A stretch of 34,367 nucleotides of DNA from positions 1-34,367 of the IMG/VR virus record IMGVR_UViG_3300025168_000022; one strand, 5' to 3'. The position numbers and the translations under genes were made by a program. Of this stretch, positions 1,861-34,367 are shown in pieces. The notes beneath the pieces were generated by a model. The model was not told the DNA's origin. It made no database searches and saw nothing but the letters and a program-made list of their open reading frames with translations. Position 1 is the first letter of the stretch; every line of letters starts with the position of its first letter. The stretch is from a virus.

Positions 1861-1877
1861 AGGTGAGTCTATCACCT
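1861..1877 (-). promoter_or_regulatory. Hairpin at the stop codon of the giant protein gene
   Basis: Perfect 6-bp arms AGGTGA and TCACCT with a 5-base loop; the stop codon of the giant gene lies in one arm. There is no T-run after it on the minus strand, so it is not a canonical terminator. It could stabilise the 3' end of the upstream message or slow read-through into the next gene. Confidence 0.35.
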
Positions 1878-4800
1878 ACTCTGCTTTCGCGGACCAGATT
1901 CACGGGCCGCCTTCTCCGTCGTGCGCAACGCGCGGATGGACAGGTCTTCAGGACTACGCAGCGACAGGTCGGTAGACAGCCCAAGGCCGAACATGATGGG
2001 CGACGACAGCCCCTGTCGCTTGATCTGCAAGTACTCGCTGGGGCTGACGCGTATTGCCATGTTGGTGCTGTCGATGATCTGCCGTTGCACACCCGCCTGA
2101 AGCAAGACGTACATCATGACCTCGAAGTTCTGGTGGTCCTCGGGCGAGGCGAACCTGTACTCCTGCGGACCCGCCTCAGGGTTCTCAGGATCGATAGCAG
2201 AAGGGCGACCGCGCAGCCGCTCGTCAGGCGGCACCGCCTCGATGTTGAACTGGTCCTTCATGTAAGGCCAAAGCCAATCTGGACTGGCCTGAATCGCAAA
2301 CTCGACAGCATCAGACGGCACGCGCCGGCCGCGCCCCATCGGCTTGCTGCCCAAGCCACCGTACTTTAGCGCCAACGTCAGGATAGGAATGAGGTTCTCG
2401 TTCTTGGCAGCATCAGCCAGACGCACCAGCGCCTGGTTGTTTTCAGCAAACAGGTTGGCGACGTAGCTGGCCATGCTCATGCCATCGATCACCGCATCAA
2501 TCGCAGGAATGCCGGGGCCGAACGACGCAGCGCCCGCATCGGTGTCGAAAATGAACTCCTTGCTCAACTGCGTCCGAGCCTTCATGTAGTCGGCACCGTA
2601 TGCCCACGCGTTGGTGCGCTGCTGGTTGATCTGCTGCATCCGAACCAGCTTGCGGAACATGCCCGGGTCGCGCGCAAGGGCGTTGAGCGTGGCAATGTAG
2701 TTCGCCGTGCGGAAGCTCAGGAACAACAGGTACTTGTTCGCCGTGTTGCCGATCCACTTCGGAGTTGCGCCGTAGTCGAGCACGACGTTGCGGGCGAGGT
2801 CGGCAGCTTGGCCCTCGGTCAGCCCGCGCATGATGCCTGTGGCAAACACGTTCTCGCGCAGTGCGATGTCTGTCGCGTTCGCGATGTACTGCAGCAGCTG
2901 CGTGCGCCGGGGGTCGAACTGGCGCGCGAACTGGCGCAGTTCAGGAGTCGGAGCCCCATCTGCCATCAGCTTTGCAGCCCGCGTCAGCTCGCGGTTGAAC
3001 GACTCGGTGAACTCGACCTGACCCCGCGACGAGCCCAGGTTGTTGCGATCGATCATCCTGCGCATCTGCCCGTAGGTCAGCTCCTGCCCCGTGTCCGTGG
3101 GCCCCATCGGAGAGGTCAGCGGCCGAGGGCTGACGGCATCCACCAGCGGACGGCCCCGCAACATGGACACCTGGCGCGCAACGTCCCGCATCTGAGACGC
3201 CGGGCCGATGGTCGAGGAGTACGCACGCAGCCCTGTCTGAGCGCCCACTGTGGTCTGAGCAATCGAAGGCCCTGATACGATGTTCGTGCCGATGTACCGG
3301 CTGATGGGGATGGGGATCGCTCCCGCAGCAAGCAGCCCACCAGCTGCCGTGCGCCGACTCAGGCTCAACGCATCCTTGAGCAGCCCGAACGCGTACTCGC
3401 CGAACTTCGTCTTCTCTCCTCTCGTCCCTCGCACGAACTGGTCACGACGGCGCAGGGTCTCAAGGTTTTCCAACAGCTCCCCGGTGCGAGACGACTTCTG
3501 AAGCGCCGCCAATGCCTCCGACATCTCTGGGCCGAGCAGCATCACAGAGTCGTCGTAGGGGTCCAGCGACTGTGCAGCCCGGACGAGGTTGGTCAGAGAG
3601 CCCTTGCCCGTGGACGGCCTGAAGCCGGTGGCGCGCATGTTGGCGTTCATCTCGTCAACGATCGGCGAGATGTAGGTCTTGAACGCGGTCTCAACGATCG
3701 TCTGTCGCATGTTCTGGAGGATGAACGAGTTGCTGTACCCCGCCTTGCGTGCAGCTTGGATGCTCTCATACAGCAGCCGGTCGCCCTCGGTGTCGAACGC
3801 TCGCTCGATGATCCTCCGCTCGAGCAACGGCTGACGACCAGGCACGCGAGGACGTATGCCCTCGGCGCGCTCGATCGGCATCATGACCTCGCGCACAACC
3901 GCAACCTTCTCGTCCATGCCCCGGATGATGGCAGTCAAGCCGCGGTACATCGCCTCTTTCTGCAGCGCCGTCAGGTCCAGGTTCGTGACCTTCTCCATGC
4001 TGCGCAGCATCGCCGTCGTGTCAGGCAGCGCCCGACCCGTGCGCAACATGTTCGACAGCACCTGCTCGGCAAGGTCAAGCCGGTCAGCCGGAAGCAGCCG
4101 CATCGCAATCATCTCGGACAGCGAGTCCAGCTCCTTGACGAACTGTCCTTGGTCGCGCATCGCATACGTCATCTTGCGGTCGACGTAGAACCTGCCGTCC
4201 TCGTTCACCGCCCGGCTCACAAGCTCCTTGAACCGCGGCGACCCCTCCAGTTCAGCCATCGCCTCGAACTTACGCCCCGCGTCCGCCTTGCGACCAACGC
4301 CCAACTTCGTCAATGACCGCACGACATTGCGCCGGGACGACAGGGGAAGCGACGCCTCGCGGAACAACCGCTTCGGGGTCTGGCTGTAGAGCGTGGGCAC
4401 AAGGTCAACGAACACCTGTGGGTGCAGTTCCTTCAGCTCGCGAGCAGCCCGACGAGTTGCCTGCGCAACGTCTGACCCGATCGCCCACGCCGACAGCGTC
4501 GGCAGCAGAGCGTCGCGCGACTTGATGGGCTGCACGTCGAACGAGGCACCCAACCCCTTCAGCTCTTTGACGTCCTCTCGCATGTCAGCCACGACATCGC
4601 GAAGCCCTTTGAGAGTGATGGGGCGCATGTCGCTGACAGCCTCAATCGGCACATCGAGGCGCTGGATACCGGGCTGACGGATGGCGATGTCCACAATGTC
4701 TGTCGACGCGTCGTCGATGTACTTCGCAAACACCTCCTCCCCAAAGAAGTTGCGCAGCACCGAGTCCCACGCTCGCTTGACGACCCCGACGTACTCGCGC

Positions 4801-7800
4801 TGGATGGCAATGTTTGCGATGTCGTCTGGAATGGGGGCGCCGCCCAGACCAGCCTCGCCCAGATCCACCCCGCGCTGGTAGGCGATGGCGTAGTACGCCT
4901 GCTTGGGAGTCATTCGCAACGAGTCCTGAAGCTCCTGCGCCTTGCGCTTCGTGATGTCTGCAACCTCCTTGAACTCTCGCTGGAGGCGCCGGTTGACGAC
5001 GATGTTGAATGCTTCCTCGGGAGACTTGCCCTGGGCCACCAGGTCGAGGCCGGCGTCTCGAACCTCCTTCAGGAAGTTGTCCCCGATCGATCCGAACTCC
5101 CCCTTCAGCTTCTCCATCATTTCGCGAACACCGGGGGCCGCATCGTCTGCCACCCCCAACGTGTCGGTCAACTCGGCGCCCAAAGCCTTGGCAACCCTGC
5201 GCACCGTTGATGCAAGCTGTCGACCACCGCCCTCACTCAGCACGACGCCCAGGTCGCGGAGCAGCGGCGAACCCTCGCCGGGCGAGTACAGCGGAGCCCG
5301 CATCACCTCAGCCTCGCGCGCACCCTCGAACCCGCGGGTGACACCGGGCTGCTTTGCAATCTCGAACTGCCGCGCCTTGCTTGCAGGGAAGCCCACCGCC
5401 TCGACAGCCACCGGCCCAAGCACCTCCTCGTAGGCGCGCGTCTTCAGCATGTCCTCGACCAGCATTCGTTGATCGGCAATGAGCGGCTTCTCAGCCCGGA
5501 TGCTGCTTACGATGTCGCTCAACACACGCGACTGCGCGACGTTGTCGGCACCGAACCCCTCAATGACCTCGTCGGCTACAGACCGTGGGTACTGGAACAC
5601 GTCCTGCACCACGCCATCAATCCGTGGGCCGGCCAAAACCTCGGGCTGCATCTTTGCGACGCGCTGCGCAACCTCGTCCACAACCTCCTCGGTGTGCATC
5701 TTGCGAGGCACCATCAACGTGCGAGACACGAACACCATGTCTTCAGGCACGATGTCCTGAATCCTGGCCTCGACAGCCCGGCCACCTGCTGCCCGAGCAG
5801 CAGCAAACACCTCTTCGGGGCGGTTCGCAATGGTCGAGCGGGTGAGCGCCTGGCCCCCCATCCGGCGAGACATGATGCGGCCCATCTCACCGGACAGCCT
5901 GCGCACCTCGTCTGACTGCGCCTGCCTCACCACCTGAGCGCCCAGCTCGTGCAGGGCTCCAACGACAGGCTTCGCCGGACCTTGTTGCACCGTCCTCAAC
6001 TGCCGCTGGTACATGTCGTCCAGCACCTTGGTCAGGTCTCCACCACTCCCATCAGCAATGGCTCGCAACTCTCGACCACCGGGCAGGTACTTGGTGTTGA
6101 TGCCGCCACCATGCAGCTGGGCGAGGACAAGCTGCGCCCGCTCGGCTGCCGTGCCCTCACCCTGGGCCAGCCTGCGAACGATGGACTGGTACGAGTCAGC
6201 GTTCAGCTCTGCTACAGCGCGCTGCAGGGCGTTGACCTCCTGGGGCAGCACGGTGTGCGACAACGGGCGCCCCAACAGCCCCGCCTCCTGAAGCACGAAC
6301 CGACCCCGCGGAGAGTCGCCCACCACGTTCACCAACTGCCGAACCAGCACCGGCTCAGTCGTTGCATCGAGCAGCGCTTGCACCTGGTAGGGCGCCAGCA
6401 CCTCGGCAGCAGTTGCCTCACCCGTCACTCGCCGCACCGACTGAAGGTTGTTGCGAACGTCGATGTCACTCAGACCCTCAACGCGACCCTCAGTCATCTC
6501 CTGCACGGCCCGTATGGCCCTGCTACGCTTCGCCGCCTGCACTGGAGACCCAGCGACATAGGCAGCCTTGTCGACAACGTCAGCGGCCTTCTCGGCCCCC
6601 TTGAGCACGGCTCGCACTGCACCTTCTTCTACGTACAGGAACCGAAGGTCGGCCGGCACATCTGCCAGGTACGCAGCCTCGCCCGCCTTGGCGGCTTTAC
6701 GGACGGTCTGAGCACCCGCTCGCGTCGCTCTCGCGGCACCCTTGCCCAGCATCTTCGCGCCGGATGCTATCGGGGTGCCGGGGTAGAACATCTCGACGCC
6801 CATGCCTACCCAGTACGGGATGGTGTTCGCACTGTCGGCAAACATGATCATGTCCTGGTCAGCTAAGACGCCCATCCCGGGAGACAGTAGCGGCACTCCG
6901 TCACCACGCATTGCTGGCATGGACATGAACTCATCGCCCAGGCTACGACCAGTTGTTGTTGCTTGCGCCCAACGCCCCATGAAAGACCCCATCGCAGGAG
7001 CGACCCTCTTGCCTGTGGGGTCGACCGGCGTAGGCAGCGTCCGCTGCGTCGGCTGGAAAGGCTTGGGTAGAAAAGCCAACGCCCCCATCGCACCCGCTCC
7101 TGTGGGCGCCCTCATCGTCCCGTCTGCCTGTAGCGCCATCGGCCCCTTGGTCAGGCGCTCGATTTCAGTGTCGTCGTAGCCAGCCATCCCGAGGGCGTCG
7201 CGACTCAGCTGGTGCATCCTGTACGCGAAGCTGTCAGGGTCGACCGGCTCGCCCGTCTCTGGGTCTTGCTCCCAAAACAGCGGGGTGAACTCGAACAACG
7301 CCTCGTTGATGAGGCCCGCACCTACGCCAGCGCCGCCGCGCAAACCGGCACCGGATGCCGTCTCCAACACCTGTCCTGACTCAGGGTCGAGCGCACTGAG
7401 GTATCCCTCCATGCGCGGGGTGCCGGTCTCAAGGATTGTTTCCTCAAGTCGAGCGCGCTCCTCCTCGTTGAGAATCAGAAAGCCGTCATCTCGTGCGGCG
7501 TAGAGCAATCGCTGCAGCGTCGCGGCTCGCGCAGCCCGGTGTCGCTCGACCTCTTCAGGGGACAGGACGCGCTGCCGGGCAAACGACTCGATCATCAGGT
7601 CAAAGTCAGTCGGCTTTCGGAACGTGCCGTCGGGCTCCCGGTACATCAGCTCGTAGGTCGGGTATCCGCCAGGAGTCAGGACGGGCCTGCCTTCCTCATC
7701 TTCGACCCGGCGCTGGAATATGCGCGACTCGCGGAAGGGGGGCGCATCGATCAACCCGCCTTCGCCCGAGGTTGTGACCCGACCCTCCGGGTCTACTCGG

Positions 7801-8471
7801 ATGCGACGAAACCGCTCGACGGATGCCTCGGCCTGTTTGGCTGCCTCGTCTGGAGCGATCCCCTTGTTTATCGCAAGGTCGTAGTATTTGCGCTTGTAGT
7901 GGTCATCGAGCGAGTCTTGCGTTCTGCCGTACTGCTCCACGATGTCGGTGCGAGCATCCAGGCCAAGCATCGAGATGGGCTTGCTGGGCGCGCCCCCAAG
8001 CAGCCCCCCGAAGTCTTCGCCTGGCAGCTCCTGTACGAACACCTGCTGTGAGCCTCCCGCGTATCCGGGTTCCTCCAGCGTCTCCTTTGCGGGGAACACA
8101 TGGTCGAGCGGGTCAGGCTCGAGCGGGTCAGGCTCAACCGGGCTGATTGCAGCAGACACTGGTGGCGGCGGGGGAGCCCCGAGCAAGTCGTCGAAGGAGT
8201 CGTCTGGAACTGGCTCAGGCTCAAGCTCGAACGTAGACTCTGGAGGTCTACGGAACGTCTGAGGCATCCTGCCCGTTGGCTTGTCGTCCGCAGGTGCGGA
8301 AGTAGGCGCAGCACCGCGCGCAGCCCCAGAGGACACGGCGGGACTGCGAGCGGCCTGCGCCTGCTCAGCCTCTAACCGGTCAGCCTCCCCGTAGAGGAAA
8401 GACGCGGTAATCGACTTGCCTGCGAGTTCGGCCCGCTGCGCGGCTGCTCGGTACTCGGCTGCGGTCTTCAT
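1872..8471 (-). CDS. Giant internal/ejection virion protein, gp16-like in position (2199 aa)
   Basis: The largest gene in the genome and the third of three consecutive internal virion protein candidates, the position of T7 gp16. Such proteins leave the capsid with the DNA and help form the trans-envelope conduit. The first 45 residues are helical and Ala-rich. Residues about 45-175 are Pro/acid-rich and probably disordered, with a tandem repeat (EPDPL twice). The rest is mostly long helical stretches with many Arg/Glu residues and few cysteines. I see no lytic transglycosylase motif at the N-terminus, which T7 gp16 carries, and no motifs of an N4-type virion RNA polymerase. Its ATG overlaps the preceding stop (ATGA). 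Ejection function is inferred from size, order and composition. Confidence 0.75.
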   Translation of the reverse strand: MKTAAEYRAAAQRAELAGKSITASFLYGEADRLEAEQAQAARSPAVSSGAARGAAPTSAPADDKPTGRMPQTFRRPPESTFELEPEPVPDDSFDDLLGAPPPPPVSAAISPVEPDPLEPDPLDHVFPAKETLEEPGYAGGSQQVFVQELPGEDFGGLLGGAPSKPISMLGLDARTDIVEQYGRTQDSLDDHYKRKYYDLAINKGIAPDEAAKQAEASVERFRRIRVDPEGRVTTSGEGGLIDAPPFRESRIFQRRVEDEEGRPVLTPGGYPTYELMYREPDGTFRKPTDFDLMIESFARQRVLSPEEVERHRAARAATLQRLLYAARDDGFLILNEEERARLEETILETGTPRMEGYLSALDPESGQVLETASGAGLRGGAGVGAGLINEALFEFTPLFWEQDPETGEPVDPDSFAYRMHQLSRDALGMAGYDDTEIERLTKGPMALQADGTMRAPTGAGAMGALAFLPKPFQPTQRTLPTPVDPTGKRVAPAMGSFMGRWAQATTTGRSLGDEFMSMPAMRGDGVPLLSPGMGVLADQDMIMFADSANTIPYWVGMGVEMFYPGTPIASGAKMLGKGAARATRAGAQTVRKAAKAGEAAYLADVPADLRFLYVEEGAVRAVLKGAEKAADVVDKAAYVAGSPVQAAKRSRAIRAVQEMTEGRVEGLSDIDVRNNLQSVRRVTGEATAAEVLAPYQVQALLDATTEPVLVRQLVNVVGDSPRGRFVLQEAGLLGRPLSHTVLPQEVNALQRAVAELNADSYQSIVRRLAQGEGTAAERAQLVLAQLHGGGINTKYLPGGRELRAIADGSGGDLTKVLDDMYQRQLRTVQQGPAKPVVGALHELGAQVVRQAQSDEVRRLSGEMGRIMSRRMGGQALTRSTIANRPEEVFAAARAAGGRAVEARIQDIVPEDMVFVSRTLMVPRKMHTEEVVDEVAQRVAKMQPEVLAGPRIDGVVQDVFQYPRSVADEVIEGFGADNVAQSRVLSDIVSSIRAEKPLIADQRMLVEDMLKTRAYEEVLGPVAVEAVGFPASKARQFEIAKQPGVTRGFEGAREAEVMRAPLYSPGEGSPLLRDLGVVLSEGGGRQLASTVRRVAKALGAELTDTLGVADDAAPGVREMMEKLKGEFGSIGDNFLKEVRDAGLDLVAQGKSPEEAFNIVVNRRLQREFKEVADITKRKAQELQDSLRMTPKQAYYAIAYQRGVDLGEAGLGGAPIPDDIANIAIQREYVGVVKRAWDSVLRNFFGEEVFAKYIDDASTDIVDIAIRQPGIQRLDVPIEAVSDMRPITLKGLRDVVADMREDVKELKGLGASFDVQPIKSRDALLPTLSAWAIGSDVAQATRRAARELKELHPQVFVDLVPTLYSQTPKRLFREASLPLSSRRNVVRSLTKLGVGRKADAGRKFEAMAELEGSPRFKELVSRAVNEDGRFYVDRKMTYAMRDQGQFVKELDSLSEMIAMRLLPADRLDLAEQVLSNMLRTGRALPDTTAMLRSMEKVTNLDLTALQKEAMYRGLTAIIRGMDEKVAVVREVMMPIERAEGIRPRVPGRQPLLERRIIERAFDTEGDRLLYESIQAARKAGYSNSFILQNMRQTIVETAFKTYISPIVDEMNANMRATGFRPSTGKGSLTNLVRAAQSLDPYDDSVMLLGPEMSEALAALQKSSRTGELLENLETLRRRDQFVRGTRGEKTKFGEYAFGLLKDALSLSRRTAAGGLLAAGAIPIPISRYIGTNIVSGPSIAQTTVGAQTGLRAYSSTIGPASQMRDVARQVSMLRGRPLVDAVSPRPLTSPMGPTDTGQELTYGQMRRMIDRNNLGSSRGQVEFTESFNRELTRAAKLMADGAPTPELRQFARQFDPRRTQLLQYIANATDIALRENVFATGIMRGLTEGQAADLARNVVLDYGATPKWIGNTANKYLLFLSFRTANYIATLNALARDPGMFRKLVRMQQINQQRTNAWAYGADYMKARTQLSKEFIFDTDAGAASFGPGIPAIDAVIDGMSMASYVANLFAENNQALVRLADAAKNENLIPILTLALKYGGLGSKPMGRGRRVPSDAVEFAIQASPDWLWPYMKDQFNIEAVPPDERLRGRPSAIDPENPEAGPQEYRFASPEDHQNFEVMMYVLLQAGVQRQIIDSTNMAIRVSPSEYLQIKRQGLSSPIMFGLGLSTDLSLRSPEDLSIRALRTTEKAARESGPRKQSR
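8104..8133. repeat. 15-bp tandem repeat, two perfect units
   Basis: The unit TCGAGCGGGTCAGGC occurs twice in a row (8104-8118, 8119-8133), followed by a diverged partial third unit. On the coding strand it produces the repeated EPDPL segment in the disordered N-terminal part of the giant virion protein. Being a multiple of three, it keeps the frame and could change length by slippage. Confidence 0.85.
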
Positions 8472-10270
8472 CTCGCAACCCGCACGGGCCTGGGTACTGC
8501 CACGTCCAGCCTCGTGTCGCCCAGTTCCACCAAGCGATCGATCGGCCGATCACCCGGGACGGTCAACTCGGTTGCCGCCATCAAGTCGAGGTTGGGGTCG
8601 TCAGACACGCCTGACGTCAATGCAGGAGCAGGGTCAGCAGACACTTCTCGCATGAACGCCGCCGCCTCCGTCGGAATGGCAGCAGCATCAGCGTTCAACG
8701 CTCCGGGCGACAAGGTGTTGCCCTTCATGTCCTGCTGGTAGTGGTGGGCGCCGTAGTAGGCGAGCGCCCTGCGTCGAGCGAGGGAGTCTTGGGGGAACTG
8801 TTTGTTGACGGCGTCAACCAATGCAGAGAAGTCGCGAGCGCCGGCCTCCGTCTGGACGTACTGAGCAGCCCAGGACTCTGCTGCGTCCTTCGGCTCGACG
8901 TCGACCCCCAGCTGGTCGCCCGCACCGCCCGCCTCCATGACTCGGCGCATCGCGTAGGGCAGCACCTCGGCCGCGATGGGGTGAACCTGACCCGCGGCTT
9001 GGATCGCCTCAGGGGACACGACGGGCAGCTCAAGCGCCCGACGCGCAGCAGTCTGCATCGGAGACCCGAAGTCCTGAAGGCCCGCCATCTGCTCGTCGAT
9101 CTGCGACAACCGCCCGAGTCCCCGCAGGTACGACTCGTCGTAGAACGCAGCCATGCCACGAGGCAGGCGCTCAAGGTTCCGAGCCTTCTCGTAGGCTGCT
9201 TTCGCCTGGTCGAAGTCGGTGCCCAGCTCTTCGCGCGTTGCAACACCGTCGTCGCGCAGCGCCCCGACGTACCGGTTCAGGAACTCCTGCTCCTGCGCAT
9301 CGAGCGGAGCGGCCAAGCCGTGCTGCTTGCGGTACTCAGCAATCCGGGCAGCCTCGGTGGGGTCAACCGTGCCGTCTGCCATCGCGTCGTCCAGCAGCCG
9401 CTCCAGCTTCACTTGTGCGCTGGACTTGCCAACCGGGTCGGAGGACGCCGCCATCTCGTCTGACCGCATACGATTGAGGGCAACTGTCGGATCGATGTTG
9501 CTGCTCAACGACGACTGCAAGAAGTTCGTCTTGAACTGCTCATCGATGATCTTTGCAACCTCATTACCCGCAGCAGTTGCTTGCGGGACCATCACGCCGT
9601 TGACCTCAACGCGCTCAACCAAGCCCGGAAACTTGCCGGTCATCGTCAGTCGAGACCACAACTCTTCAACAGCAGCAGCCTTTTGCGACTCTGCCACCTT
9701 GTCCTGCGTCGCAAGCGCATCGCCGTACCTGTCAGCTTGTCTGCTGATGGTCGCTATCAGCTGCCTTGCGTCCAGCGTGCGCCCCGGACGAAGATTACCG
9801 TCAGCTAAAATGGCATCGACCAGCCGAGCGTGGGGGCCGGTTGGCTCAAAGCGCAGGTTCGTCGCCAGAATCTGGTCGGTCGTCAACCTCTTGCTGTCGA
9901 TCAACCGCTGCGTGTCAGCCTCGGCCGCCTTCTGGTACACCCCGAGGTTGCCGCCACCACTGCGCCCCGACGCACGCGCACCACCGGACGCACCGCCCCC
10001 TCGGCCAGACGGACCCAGCCCGGTCTCGCGGAAGTTGGACAGCGTCCTGAGTACCTGGTCACGCTCTTTCGAAAGGAGCGCCCGCTGCTCGCTGCGCTGC
10101 TTTGCCTGGAAGGTCTCGTCTTCGAGGATGGTCTGGTAGATCCGCTGTTGCATCGCACCGGGGTGGTACTTGCTGTAGATCTCCAGCGCCTTGGTGAGCG
10201 CGCCCCCACCACCAGCCTCAAGGAAAGACTTGGGCCGGTAGCTCGGGTATGTCGGCTTGGGGAGTGCCAT
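8468..10270 (-). CDS. Internal virion protein, gp15-like in position (600 aa)
   Basis: The second of three consecutive internal virion protein candidates. The N-terminus (MALPKPTYPSYRPKS) is followed by a long, charged helical region. A flexible Gly/Ser/Arg-rich stretch lies near residues 88-110, and then many helices with regularly spaced Arg/Glu/Gln continue to the end. There is no membrane segment or enzyme motif. In T7-like phages the product in this position (gp15) forms the tube-like part of the ejection apparatus together with gp14 and gp16. I infer the same role from gene order, length and composition rather than from residue-level similarity. The start overlaps the stop of the previous gene by one base and the end overlaps the giant gene by ATGA. 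Confidence 0.7.
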   Translation of the reverse strand: MALPKPTYPSYRPKSFLEAGGGGALTKALEIYSKYHPGAMQQRIYQTILEDETFQAKQRSEQRALLSKERDQVLRTLSNFRETGLGPSGRGGGASGGARASGRSGGGNLGVYQKAAEADTQRLIDSKRLTTDQILATNLRFEPTGPHARLVDAILADGNLRPGRTLDARQLIATISRQADRYGDALATQDKVAESQKAAAVEELWSRLTMTGKFPGLVERVEVNGVMVPQATAAGNEVAKIIDEQFKTNFLQSSLSSNIDPTVALNRMRSDEMAASSDPVGKSSAQVKLERLLDDAMADGTVDPTEAARIAEYRKQHGLAAPLDAQEQEFLNRYVGALRDDGVATREELGTDFDQAKAAYEKARNLERLPRGMAAFYDESYLRGLGRLSQIDEQMAGLQDFGSPMQTAARRALELPVVSPEAIQAAGQVHPIAAEVLPYAMRRVMEAGGAGDQLGVDVEPKDAAESWAAQYVQTEAGARDFSALVDAVNKQFPQDSLARRRALAYYGAHHYQQDMKGNTLSPGALNADAAAIPTEAAAFMREVSADPAPALTSGVSDDPNLDLMAATELTVPGDRPIDRLVELGDTRLDVAVPRPVRVAR

Positions 10271-24074: not shown

Positions 24075-24127
24075 TGGTCATGGGGCTTCTCCCCTTTCGG
24101 GTGCAGGGTGCAGGGTACATTAGATAT

Positions 24128-24167: not shown

Positions 24168-24225
24168 CGAGAGGTGAAGGGGGCGAAAAGTCCAAGGCAC
24201 CCCGCACCCTGCACCCACCTGGTTC

Positions 24226-24402: not shown

Positions 24403-24660
24403 ATGACCCTCGCCACAACACACAGTCGCCACAGCAACAGCCACCAGTGGGCGGCGCTCGCCCACCCTGACGGGGCATGGTTTCTGAACGGCACACCCTG
24501 CCGACTCGTCGGTATCCTTGGCTGCGGTTCCGGTGTCTGGCATGCCGACGTTTGGCCAGATGAGCGCCCCACCACATGCCAGCTGGATGCAGCTGCACGC
24601 CTTGGCCTTACCGTCCGCATCTGCGACGAGGTGACAGTGGAGCACGCCTTGCGATCCTGA
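24403..24660 (+). CDS. First early gene, unknown function (85 aa)
   Basis: An 85-residue protein beginning MTLATTHSRHSNSHQWAAL, with Cys/Gly-rich middle (GTPCRLVGILGCGSGVWHADVW) and a helical C-terminal part. I do not recognise a family, and there is no membrane segment. As the first gene after the control region it is likely made earliest, so an anti-host or anti-defence role is conceivable but only inferred from position. The ATG at 24403 is chosen for its AGGACAC site. Its TGA stop forms part of stem I of the first hammerhead ribozyme. Confidence 0.65.
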   Translation: MTLATTHSRHSNSHQWAALAHPDGAWFLNGTPCRLVGILGCGSGVWHADVWPDERPTTCQLDAAARLGLTVRICDEVTVEHALRS

Positions 24661-24711
24661 GTAGCTGACGAGACCGGAAGGTCGAAACGTCCCACACGGG
24701 ACGTCCTACTC
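24659..24711 (+). ncRNA. Hammerhead ribozyme, type I, copy 1
   Basis: Stem I is GAGTAG (24659-24664) with CTACTC (24706-24711). The core CTGACGA is at 24665-24671. Stem II is GACC with GGTC (24672-24675, 24680-24683) closed by a GGAA tetraloop. Then comes GAA (24684-24686). Stem III is ACGTCCC with GGGACGT (24687-24693, 24698-24704), with loop ACAC. C24705 is the cleavage nucleotide, so cleavage is expected between 24705 and 24706. Every invariant core base of the hammerhead is present (CUGANGA, GAA, the A-U pair at the base of stem III, and H=C). Stem I is open, so it is type I. The 5' strand starts inside the TGA of the upstream gene; the downstream product begins with a 23-base leader carrying AGGACAC. 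Confidence 0.93.
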
Positions 24712-24718
24712 TCACAAG

Positions 24719-24725
24719 AGGACAC
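24719..24725 (+). promoter_or_regulatory. AGGACAC ribosome-binding site after ribozyme 1
   Basis: Located 13 bases downstream of the predicted cleavage point and four bases before the ATG at 24729. The AGAGG part can pair with CCUUG before stem I in the uncleaved RNA, so cleavage might expose it. Confidence 0.65.
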
Positions 24726-24728
24726 ACA

Positions 24729-25094
24729 ATGCCTACCAAGAACCAGCAATTTGCCTCCCTTGCATCACTGCACCGCAACCCAGACACGGCCGACGGAGCC
24801 CGCATCTACCGCGCCCTTCGTCGCATCGAGTGCCGCATGTCACGGGCTGCAGAAGATGCCTGCACTCCGCGCGGTGCATCCCGTTACGCCGAGCTGGAAC
24901 GCGTTGCCGAGAACCAGGTGATGAATTTGTTCGGTCGAGTGCTACCCGTTGACGGATTCTTCTGCAATGGAGACCCCCGCGGGTACGCTTTGAAGCTGTG
25001 CAACGATGCAGTCACCATCCCTGAGGGCATGGCTACGGATTGGGGTGGCTACGGCATCCTTGCGCCCGAACCTTCTACGCTCCGGGGTGCGTGA
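24729..25094 (+). CDS. Early protein of unknown function (121 aa)
   Basis: A 121-residue helical, mildly basic protein starting MPTKNQQFASLASLHRNPDTADG. Cys residues occur at C35, C44, C79 and C90; they are not in a clear zinc-finger spacing. The middle (AELERVAENQVMNLFGRVLPVDGFF) looks like a helix pair. I do not recognise it. It is the first gene after ribozyme 1 and would begin the cleaved message. Its TGA overlaps the next ATG by one base (TGATG), linking it to the 110-aa and 94-aa genes in a three-gene cassette bounded by the two ribozymes. Confidence 0.7.
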   Translation: MPTKNQQFASLASLHRNPDTADGARIYRALRRIECRMSRAAEDACTPRGASRYAELERVAENQVMNLFGRVLPVDGFFCNGDPRGYALKLCNDAVTIPEGMATDWGGYGILAPEPSTLRGA

Positions 25095-25426
25095 TGGAAG
25101 CCGTCGAGATCAAAGGCGCCCCCTGCGTTTCCATCTCCATCCGTCTGCGGTACGATCGCAACGGCAACAAGTTCTACCGGGTACAGCTCGCGGCGCATGG
25201 AGGTGGCAAGCGTTTCGGCTGTGCTGCCTTCAACCCCATGAAGGTTAACGCCTCTAGCACAACACCTAACGAGGCTCTTGAAGCCTACGTGTCTCGTATC
25301 GTGGAGGCTGTTGGCGCGTCCACTTGGTGGTCTGGCCCTTGGGTCCTGGCGTACTCAGGCCAGCAAAAGAGCGGCAGCCACCGCCTGCCTTGCTGGGTGG
25401 CTATCTCTATGGGGGGTGTGCAATGA
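25094..25426 (+). CDS. Early protein of unknown function (110 aa)
   Basis: A 110-residue protein beginning MEAVEIKGAPCVSISIRLRYDRNG. The first half is beta-rich (VSISIRLRYD, KFYRVQLAAHGG) and the second has a helix (TPNEALEAYVSRIVEAVGAS). It has no membrane segment and no recognised motif. The start at 25094 is chosen because it shares a base with the preceding stop (TGATG) and avoids an upstream extension in the same frame. It is the second gene of the ribozyme-bounded cassette. The ATGA overlap with the next gene suggests coupled translation. Confidence 0.7.
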   Translation: MEAVEIKGAPCVSISIRLRYDRNGNKFYRVQLAAHGGGKRFGCAAFNPMKVNASSTTPNEALEAYVSRIVEAVGASTWWSGPWVLAYSGQQKSGSHRLPCWVAISMGGVQ

Positions 25427-25707
25427 CCGCGCTTGCCTTCAATCTCCGGCACACCGATACCCACGTTCAGTATGCATTGTGTGACTGTTGCAGCGCTGGC
25501 GTCGCCAATGACGACTGGACCCACTTGGACGCACAGCCCGAGATGGCCGACGAGAACCACGCGCGCATCGGTGGAACCCTTGAGCTTCTCGGGTGGCTGA
25601 CACCACTCAGCCCGTACGACCCGGGAGGGTACTGGACGTGCGAGATTTGCTGGGAGACCTGCATAGGCTCGGGGCAGGTCTGGGAGGGTGAACGCAGGCG
25701 CGGGTAG
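25423..25707 (+). CDS. Early Cys-rich protein, possible zinc binder (94 aa)
   Basis: A 94-residue protein with two cysteine knuckles, CDCC near residues 19-22 and CEIC-x3-C near residues 74-81, that could bind one zinc ion. Between them lies a stretch with LGWLTPLSPYDPGGYWTCE. I do not recognise the family; small zinc proteins in early regions often bind host proteins or nucleic acids, but that is inference. The start is an ATGA overlap with the previous gene. Its TAG stop lies within stem I of the second hammerhead ribozyme, exactly as the stop of the 85-aa gene lies in ribozyme 1. Confidence 0.7.
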   Translation: MTALAFNLRHTDTHVQYALCDCCSAGVANDDWTHLDAQPEMADENHARIGGTLELLGWLTPLSPYDPGGYWTCEICWETCIGSGQVWEGERRRG

Positions 25708-25755
25708 CTGACGAGGTCGGAAGACCGAAACGTCCCATCCAGGGACGTCCTACCC
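25702..25755 (+). ncRNA. Hammerhead ribozyme, type I, copy 2
   Basis: Stem I is GGGTAG (25702-25707) with CTACCC (25750-25755). The core CTGACGA is at 25708-25714. Stem II is GGTC with GACC (25715-25718, 25723-25726), with a GGAA loop. GAA is at 25727-25729. Stem III is ACGTCCC with GGGACGT (25730-25736, 25742-25748), with loop ATCCA. C25749 is the cleavage nucleotide, so cleavage is expected between 25749 and 25750. Compared with copy 1, stem II shows A-U changed to G-C and C-G changed to U-A, and stem I shows A-U changed to G-C. All these changes keep pairing, while the core and stem III are identical. This covariation is strong evidence for a selected RNA structure. The TAG of the upstream gene forms the 3' half of the first stem I strand. 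Confidence 0.93.
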
Positions 25756-25762
25756 TAACCAA

Positions 25763-25769
25763 AGGACAC
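25763..25769 (+). promoter_or_regulatory. AGGACAC ribosome-binding site after ribozyme 2
   Basis: Located 13 bases after the predicted cleavage point, as in ribozyme 1, and two bases before the ATG at 25772. The conserved distance between cleavage point and ribosome site in the two copies suggests that ribozyme and leader form one unit. Confidence 0.65.
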
Positions 25770-25771
25770 AC

Positions 25772-26020
25772 ATGAACACCCCTTGGAATACCCCGGCAGA
25801 ACTGCGCTCGGCGCTTCTTCTCGACTTACTCGACCGGTGGGAGATTCACTGCGACGAAACCCCGGTATCCGGTGGTCGCTTTCGCTGGGATGAGAACGCC
25901 CGCGAAGCACTGCACGCCGCCGGTCCAGAAGCTCCGGCCGTCGTGTCGGTAGAACGTCTTCTCGCCATGGCGTGCGAGTACCTGACTCGCTTCCCCTCCG
26001 ACCGTGGGAACGCAGCATGA
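25772..26020 (+). CDS. Early protein of unknown function (82 aa)
   Basis: An 82-residue, mildly acidic, mostly helical protein starting MNTPWNTPAELRSALLLDLLDRWE. The middle has a short beta turn (ETPVSGGRFRWDENARE) and the end a helix (SVERLLAMACEYLTRF). No motif is recognised. It is the first gene after ribozyme 2. Its stop overlaps the ATG of a 30-residue membrane protein (ATGA). Confidence 0.7.
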   Translation: MNTPWNTPAELRSALLLDLLDRWEIHCDETPVSGGRFRWDENAREALHAAGPEAPAVVSVERLLAMACEYLTRFPSDRGNAA

Positions 26021-33963: not shown

Positions 33964-34227
33964 CTACCTCCTGCTCTTCTTGCCGCTGCACTTCCACCGC
34001 TTGCGCGACAACCGCAGCGGGCTGTTGGGGTTCTTTGCCGCCGCGGGCGACTTCTTCATCTGGCCGGCAGACCGGGCACAGTAGGCGTCGCCTTTCGAGG
34101 TGCCGGGCTTGACCCTCGGGCCGCCGCCCTTCGCCTTACCGGCCTGACCGTAGGACACCTTGCGCTTCCGCCCGGTCTTCTTGTCGGTGTAGGTCTTGGC
34201 CCGGGCCTTGCCCTTCGCCGGCTTCAC
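33964..34227 (-). CDS. Basic protein with KTGRKRKVSYGQAGKA-type motif (87 aa, GTG start)
   Basis: An 87-residue, strongly basic protein. It contains AKTYTDKKTGRKRKVSYGQAG, then GDAYCARSAGQMKK and SPLRLSRKRWKC. This block of CARSAGQ plus a terminal RKRWKC is found in small phage proteins of unknown role (a DUF6321-like pattern, recalled and not checked). The two Cys and His-free basic context could be a metal or nucleic-acid site. The GTG at 34227 overlaps the stop of the holin-like gene (GTGA, seen in the right repeat copy at 34224-34226). It crosses the circle junction; read it here in the right-hand copy. Confidence 0.7.
   Translation of the reverse strand: MKPAKGKARAKTYTDKKTGRKRKVSYGQAGKAKGGGPRVKPGTSKGDAYCARSAGQMKKSPAAAKNPNSPLRLSRKRWKCSGKKSRR
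33967..33972 (-). promoter_or_regulatory. Strong ribosome-binding site fixing a start
   Basis: AGGAGG on the minus strand, five bases before the ATG at 33961, within the last codons of the upstream basic gene. It decides the 48-aa start. Confidence 0.75.
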
Positions 34228-34367
34228 TTGTTGGCCATCGAGTCGAGCTTGCCGTACAGTCCACCGACCTTGCGCTCGATGCGGGCCGAGGTCTCGCGAC
34301 ACTCCTGCATCTCAGCCAGCCACGCATTGCGGTCGGCTGCATGCTCGTCGATGAGGCGGTCGACCTG
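34219..34367. repeat. Terminal direct repeat, right copy (circular overlap)
   Basis: Identical to 1-149. This copy contains the 3' half of the holin-like gene (its stop is at 34224-34226) joined to the GTG of the 87-aa basic gene, showing that genes are continuous across the junction. Confidence 0.95.

Follow-up and report, generated by a model that had tools for sequence, protein, structure and literature searches.

What two self-cleaving RNA motifs do among the ordinary protein-coding genes of a phage is the question raised by the early region of IMG/VR record IMGVR_UViG_3300025168_000022. The window analysed here is a stretch of 34,367 bases that makes up the whole, or nearly the whole, of this tailed-phage record. 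An exact 149-base direct repeat is present at the record ends (1-149 and 34219-34367), as in a circular assembly or a terminally redundant genome. The minus strand carries the virion genes (terminase, portal, and major head protein) and the plus strand the early genes, including a VapE-like helicase/primase, an ERF annealase, and a RuvC-like resolvase. A 2,199-codon open frame within the virion gene block (1872-8471, minus strand) is without a PHROG match. The divergent gene blocks are separated by a region ahead of the early operon that contains a 26-nt inverted repeat (24099-24124 and 24191-24216, 85% complementary), a possible regulatory site.

Two copies of a hammerhead ribozyme, 1.04 kb apart on the same strand, flank ORF2 to ORF4. 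The features of this region are as follows, L003 being a related contig:

24403-24660, plus strand: ORF1, a small early gene that precedes copy 1, matching no Pfam or PHROG family
24659-24711, plus strand: hammerhead copy 1, from sequence, descriptor, MFE fold, and covariance model; predicted cut 24705/24706
24729-25094, plus strand: ORF2, first gene of the inter-ribozyme block, no family match and no nucleotide match in L003
25094-25426, plus strand: ORF3, between the ribozymes, overlapping ORF2 as TGATG, no family match
25423-25707, plus strand: ORF4, assigned to phrog_7225 (function unknown), immediately before copy 2
25702-25755, plus strand: hammerhead copy 2, type I with stem I open, from sequence, descriptor, MFE fold, and covariance model; predicted cut 25749/25750
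25772-26020, plus strand: ORF5, small gene that immediately follows copy 2, no family match and no match in L003

Structure and identification of the hammerheads

Copy 2 has a 6-bp open stem I (25702-25707 paired with 25750-25755), the core sequence CUGACGA (25708-25714), a 4-bp stem II (25715-25718 with 25723-25726) closed by a GGAA loop, GAA at 25727-25729, a 7-bp stem III (A25730-C25736 with G25742-U25748), and C17 at 25749. The type I core was defined as C3U4G5A6N7G8A9, G12A13A14, an A15.1-U16.1 pair, and H17, and both copies have it as CUGACGA, GAA, an A-U pair, and C17. The MFE fold of each copy is exactly the hammerhead. The three-helix topology, with loops on stems II and III and stem I open, is seen in these folds and in changes on both sides of pairs in all three helices.

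The initial annotation had proposed copy 2 from the sequence alone, and all of the elements that it described are present where it placed them, including the predicted cleavage position between 25749 and 25750. Its comparison of the copies is also correct. In stem II an A-U pair in copy 1 is G-C in copy 2 and a C-G pair is U-A, while in stem I an A-U pair is G-C. Stem III is identical in both and its loop differs, being ACAC (4 nt) in copy 1 and AUCCA (5 nt) in copy 2. The stretch from 25702 to 25755 is confirmed as a complete type I hammerhead by structure, with cleavage predicted.

When both strands of the window were scanned with a hammerhead descriptor, only these two copies matched, and there were no matches in 300 Markov-1 simulations of the window. 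Rfam was rejected as a sole test for such sequences, as both copies were missed over the whole window, which gave no match at E<=1, and were below threshold when a short stretch was searched. On the short stretch, copy 2 scored 23.2 bits against RF02275 Hammerhead_HH9 (gathering score 52) and had no type I (RF00163) match, while copy 1 scored 20.2 bits against RAGATH-1, also below the gathering score. Against RF00163 Hammerhead_1, copy 1 scored 16.6 bits (gathering score 34) with stem III misaligned. Since the gathering scores are not reached, the copies are assigned to their structural class rather than to RF00163 or RF02275. A Megablast search against the phage collection found no match.

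A covariance model, R1, was built from 21 hammerheads of other phages, with neither the window nor L003 included. It scores copy 2 at 49.8 bits (E 4e-14) and copy 1 at 48.9 bits (E 9e-14). In a search of 45 kb, it found the five copies of the window and L003 at E 5e-13 or better and nothing else.

Maintenance of pairing

The contig L003 has a helicase 95% identical to that of the window and three hammerheads in the same region. Aligned together, the two copies from the window and the three from L003 have standard pairs in all 84 of 84 pair cells. Changes on both sides are found in 6 of the 17 pairs, three in stem I, two in stem II, and one in stem III. The covariation score of this alignment is 0.412, compared with a shuffled mean of 0.187, and none of 500 shuffles reached it. 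In controls where the alignment was slid, pairing fell to 37-43%, and the covariation score was above that of every slid version. The earlier proposal that covariation between the copies reflects a maintained structure is thus supported by the alignment test with L003, and the case that would have argued against it, a broken stem beside a retained neighbouring gene, was not seen among the relatives found.

The same is evident in a wider and less biased set of phages, whose contigs were retrieved with DNA patterns specifying no more than the core, the letters of loop II, the G-C pair at the outer end of stem II, and GUC. Stem I is complete, with all 6 bp, in 102 of the 126 distinct matches, and stem II is complete in 125, against 7.6 and 27.4 expected from shuffled partners. 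It is very improbable that the window copies are decaying or chance hammerhead-like sequences that are inactive. Their scores below the Rfam gathering thresholds would fit such an origin, but the empty simulations and the finding of five copies with covarying stems and a flawless core do not.

Relatives found through the major head protein, with helicases 33-57% identical, have no hammerhead. They are also without ORF1 to ORF5, so they neither support nor refute maintenance of the structure. The absence of the motif from them indicates that it is dispensable in this phage group, a narrow lineage of which has either acquired or retained it.

Loop II and the flanks of stem I

Of the 109 hammerheads with a tetraloop as loop II (mostly GGAA or GUAA, of GNAA type), stem I is followed by a U in 104. 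Those with a pentaloop (mostly UNNNU) have an A on both sides of stem I in 32 of 33. The two classes co-occur within the same phages, therefore the covariation of loop and flank is not only a matter of descent. Both copies in the window belong to the tetraloop class, with a pyrimidine before stem I and a U after it. Fast cleavage by hammerheads requires loop II to make a peripheral contact with the flank of stem I. Judged from the sequences, the covariation would be as expected for the known tertiary contact (PMC6155905). It provides a sequence rule by which phage hammerheads that are poorly scored by Rfam models can be recognised. Four contigs (L036, L166, L180, and L198) have an unusually dense load of 7 to 9 hammerheads each, with GNAA and UNNNU loops mixed.

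Location between stop and start codons

Each copy in the window fits between the end of one gene and the start of the next. The features that make up this arrangement, read from the sequence, are:

24658-24660, plus strand: TGA stop codon of ORF1, sharing its last two bases with the start of stem I in copy 1
24706-24728, plus strand: copy 1 leader, 23 nt, with AGGA, up to the ATG of ORF2, predicted to have a 5'-OH; within the homology block with L003 at 24656-24728
25705-25707, plus strand: TAG stop codon of ORF4, with which the 5' strand of stem I in copy 2 ends
25750-25771, plus strand: copy 2 leader, 22 nt, with AGGA, up to the ATG of ORF5, predicted to have a 5'-OH; L003 matches up to the start codon

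The L003 homologue of ORF4, 55% identical, likewise ends in a hammerhead. In copy 1 the remaining two frames run into stops of their own a few bases later, TAG at 24662-24664 and TGA at 24666-24668. A three-frame stop, as in copy 1, was rejected as a general design, being found in just 4 of 66 distinct 5' ends (shuffled mean 0.25).

A sample of 142 non-redundant junctions, each preceded by an ORF of 60 codons or more, was assembled from phage contigs, with two of the junctions taken from bacterial MAGs. The upstream stop is at -9 to +1 of the core C in 94 of the 142, where the ORFs were called mechanically and some offsets are wrong. This was found for 64 of 87 in the first sample and more weakly, for 30 of 55, in the second, independent one, which contains the GTRA-loop and the two MAG junctions. 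Two published phage hammerheads whose cores vary, PaP3 and Bcep176, are unmatched by the strict descriptor and absent from this statistic. Stops at -9 to 0 of C3 are present at 42% of the 142 junctions, compared with 9% of control sites, which are non-hammerhead CTGANGA sequences in the same contigs. Stops at +1, formed by the core UGA, were rejected as evidence of translation coupling, at 24% versus 20% at the control CTGANGA sites. Of the 66 distinct 5' ends, 22 have the stop at -7 and 14 have it at -3, where shuffling gives approximately 3.2 for each.

On the other side of the ribozyme, the leader from cut to start has a median length of 31 nt. A start codon with a Shine-Dalgarno-like sequence is found 15-49 nt past the predicted cut in 75% of cases, against 13% from random positions. 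In an unrelated phage group, L001 has five hammerheads at 6034-7981, and some of the upstream genes there end at the core UGA. The leaders of the L001 hammerheads repeat CTGCAATGGAG.

The stops within stem I could mean that a terminating ribosome blocks folding and so couples cleavage to translation, with cutting confined to times when no ribosome is finishing the upstream gene. Such gating, which would add to the reading of the elements as self-cleaving punctuation set out below, is rather unlikely. The peaks at -7 and -3 and the clustering of 94 stops around the start of the core are in its favour, but the stop is outside in a third of cases, those at +1 are unenriched, and close packing is equally predicted by genome compaction, of which the overlap could be a by-product.

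Gene exchange at the ribozymes

Outside the ribozyme region, the window and L003 are 82-94% identical. The genes between the ribozymes have no nucleotide match between the two, and the only DNA shared there is a pair of cassettes, 24656-24728 and 25701-25772, each running from stop codon to start codon. For L166 and L180, which are approximately 94% identical and contain eight to nine ribozymes, homology stops at 8647, inside a ribozyme, and picks up again at 9072, two bases short of the following ribozyme; the sequences in between are unrelated. Across the long homology blocks of seven phage pairs, 12 of 54 block ends are within 20 nt of a ribozyme, where 3.2 would be expected. For the sequences compared, this shows that the ribozymes sit at module borders; as the test is without a comparison to ordinary gene boundaries, it speaks to their location and does not imply that they cause the exchange.

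These elements might have been kept mainly as recombination joints, short repeats serving annealase-driven swaps of early genes, with cleavage secondary. The excess of block ends near ribozymes would be in keeping with this, as would the ERF annealase encoded in the window and the unrelated inter-ribozyme genes in phages otherwise approximately 91-94% identical. However, a pure DNA joint would keep its sequence, whereas here the stems vary and it is the pairing and the core that stay. This explanation is unlikely as the main one, and it is compatible with RNA cleavage rather than exclusive of it.

The DNA pattern was found in 83 stretches of viral contigs and in just 3 stretches across 84,980 bacterial and archaeal genomes, so the hammerhead version seen here is mainly one of phages that lie outside host chromosomes. 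The same hammerhead pair, one of each loop class, is present in L150 and L151, MAG contigs assigned to uncultured Flammeovirgaceae. These are possibly prophages, or phage contigs binned with their host.

Proposed function

The hammerheads probably act as self-cleaving punctuation, by which a polycistronic early mRNA is cut at gene junctions that have exchangeable genes on either side. It best explains what was observed, namely the hammerhead structure and its covariation, how the stops and starts are placed, and the swapping of genes around the conserved ribozymes. Scans for sigma-70 promoters and terminators at the junctions gave no convincing alternative.

Hammerheads cleave 3' of H17, generating a 2',3'-cyclic phosphate and a 5'-hydroxyl. 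On the early, plus-strand polycistronic transcript, each copy would fold and cut its own strand in cis, at 24705/24706 and 25749/25750. The upstream message would keep its coding sequence whole, stop codon included, and would carry the hairpins of stems II and III at a 3' end with the 2',3'-cyclic phosphate. The downstream message would begin with the 5'-hydroxyl and a short leader containing the Shine-Dalgarno sequence. In this way a single cut would separate the messages and is likely to give them separate stability and translation. The ribozyme and its leader form one stop-to-start unit, around which the flanking genes are exchanged among related phages. What we infer, from the behaviour of hammerheads as a class and from published tandem sets in phages that do cleave, is that cutting takes place in the cell, that the ends have this chemistry, and that stability and translation are affected.

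A more general form of this idea, put forward tentatively, is that phage hammerheads are transferable gene-boundary cassettes that reach exactly from stop to start codon and supply stops within stem I and the core (covering three frames in copy 1), a self-cut, and a ribosome-binding leader, so that an inserted gene would be separately cut and translated and terminating ribosomes would time the cutting.

It is barely credible that the two cuts serve to liberate the intervening RNA, to be circularised or to act in trans, as in viroid-like RNAs and retrozymes. A same-strand type I pair around approximately 1.04 kb, with cleavage ends that could be ligated, might be expected of such a system, but the freed piece would consist of three ordinary coding genes, and other phages have up to 9 unequally spaced copies, or only one. 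In addition, Perreault et al. sought circular or spliced products and found none (PMC3088659).

Comparison with known hammerheads

The best Rfam match to copy 2, RF02275 Hammerhead_HH9, aligns over the full length and has the same core, although copy 2 is without the outer part of stem I. RF00163 Hammerhead_1 has the same topology as the window copies, with stem I open.

The HHphage hammerhead of the haloviruses HF1 and HF2 is 13 nt upstream of an early-gene start, and an RNA 5' end has been mapped to within 3 nt of its cut (PMC3088659). The window copies are similarly close upstream of early-gene starts. HHphage differs in being a hammerhead variant of archaeal viruses, for which a salt response has been proposed (PMC3088659).

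Clusters of hammerheads in prophages were described by Perreault et al. in 2011 as flanking single genes or short blocks, the identities of which are not constant, and processing of long phage transcripts was proposed (PMC3088659). Sets of tandem hammerheads from phages cleave in vitro, and for one triple set cleavage was also seen in E. coli (PMC3088659). In its main text, that paper uses neither 'stop codon' nor 'ribosome' (PMC3088659). The stop-to-start fit, the stops within stem I, and the precise gene exchange were not found in the open-access papers searched, so their priority is uncertain. The role of bacterial and phage hammerheads has been open since 2010-2011 and was listed as unanswered in a 2017 review (PMC6155905). 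The stop-to-start placement, the stem I stops, and the gene swapping make the vague idea of 'mRNA processing' directly testable.

By their sequence, the hammerheads of the window belong to the clustered phage hammerheads described in 2011. As in those clusters, at least two hammerheads flank a few genes, two being present in the window and three in L003. The 2011 clusters are from prophages, whereas the present 53-54 nt version is from an IMG/VR phage record, and here exact gene swaps between the copies are documented in closely related phages.
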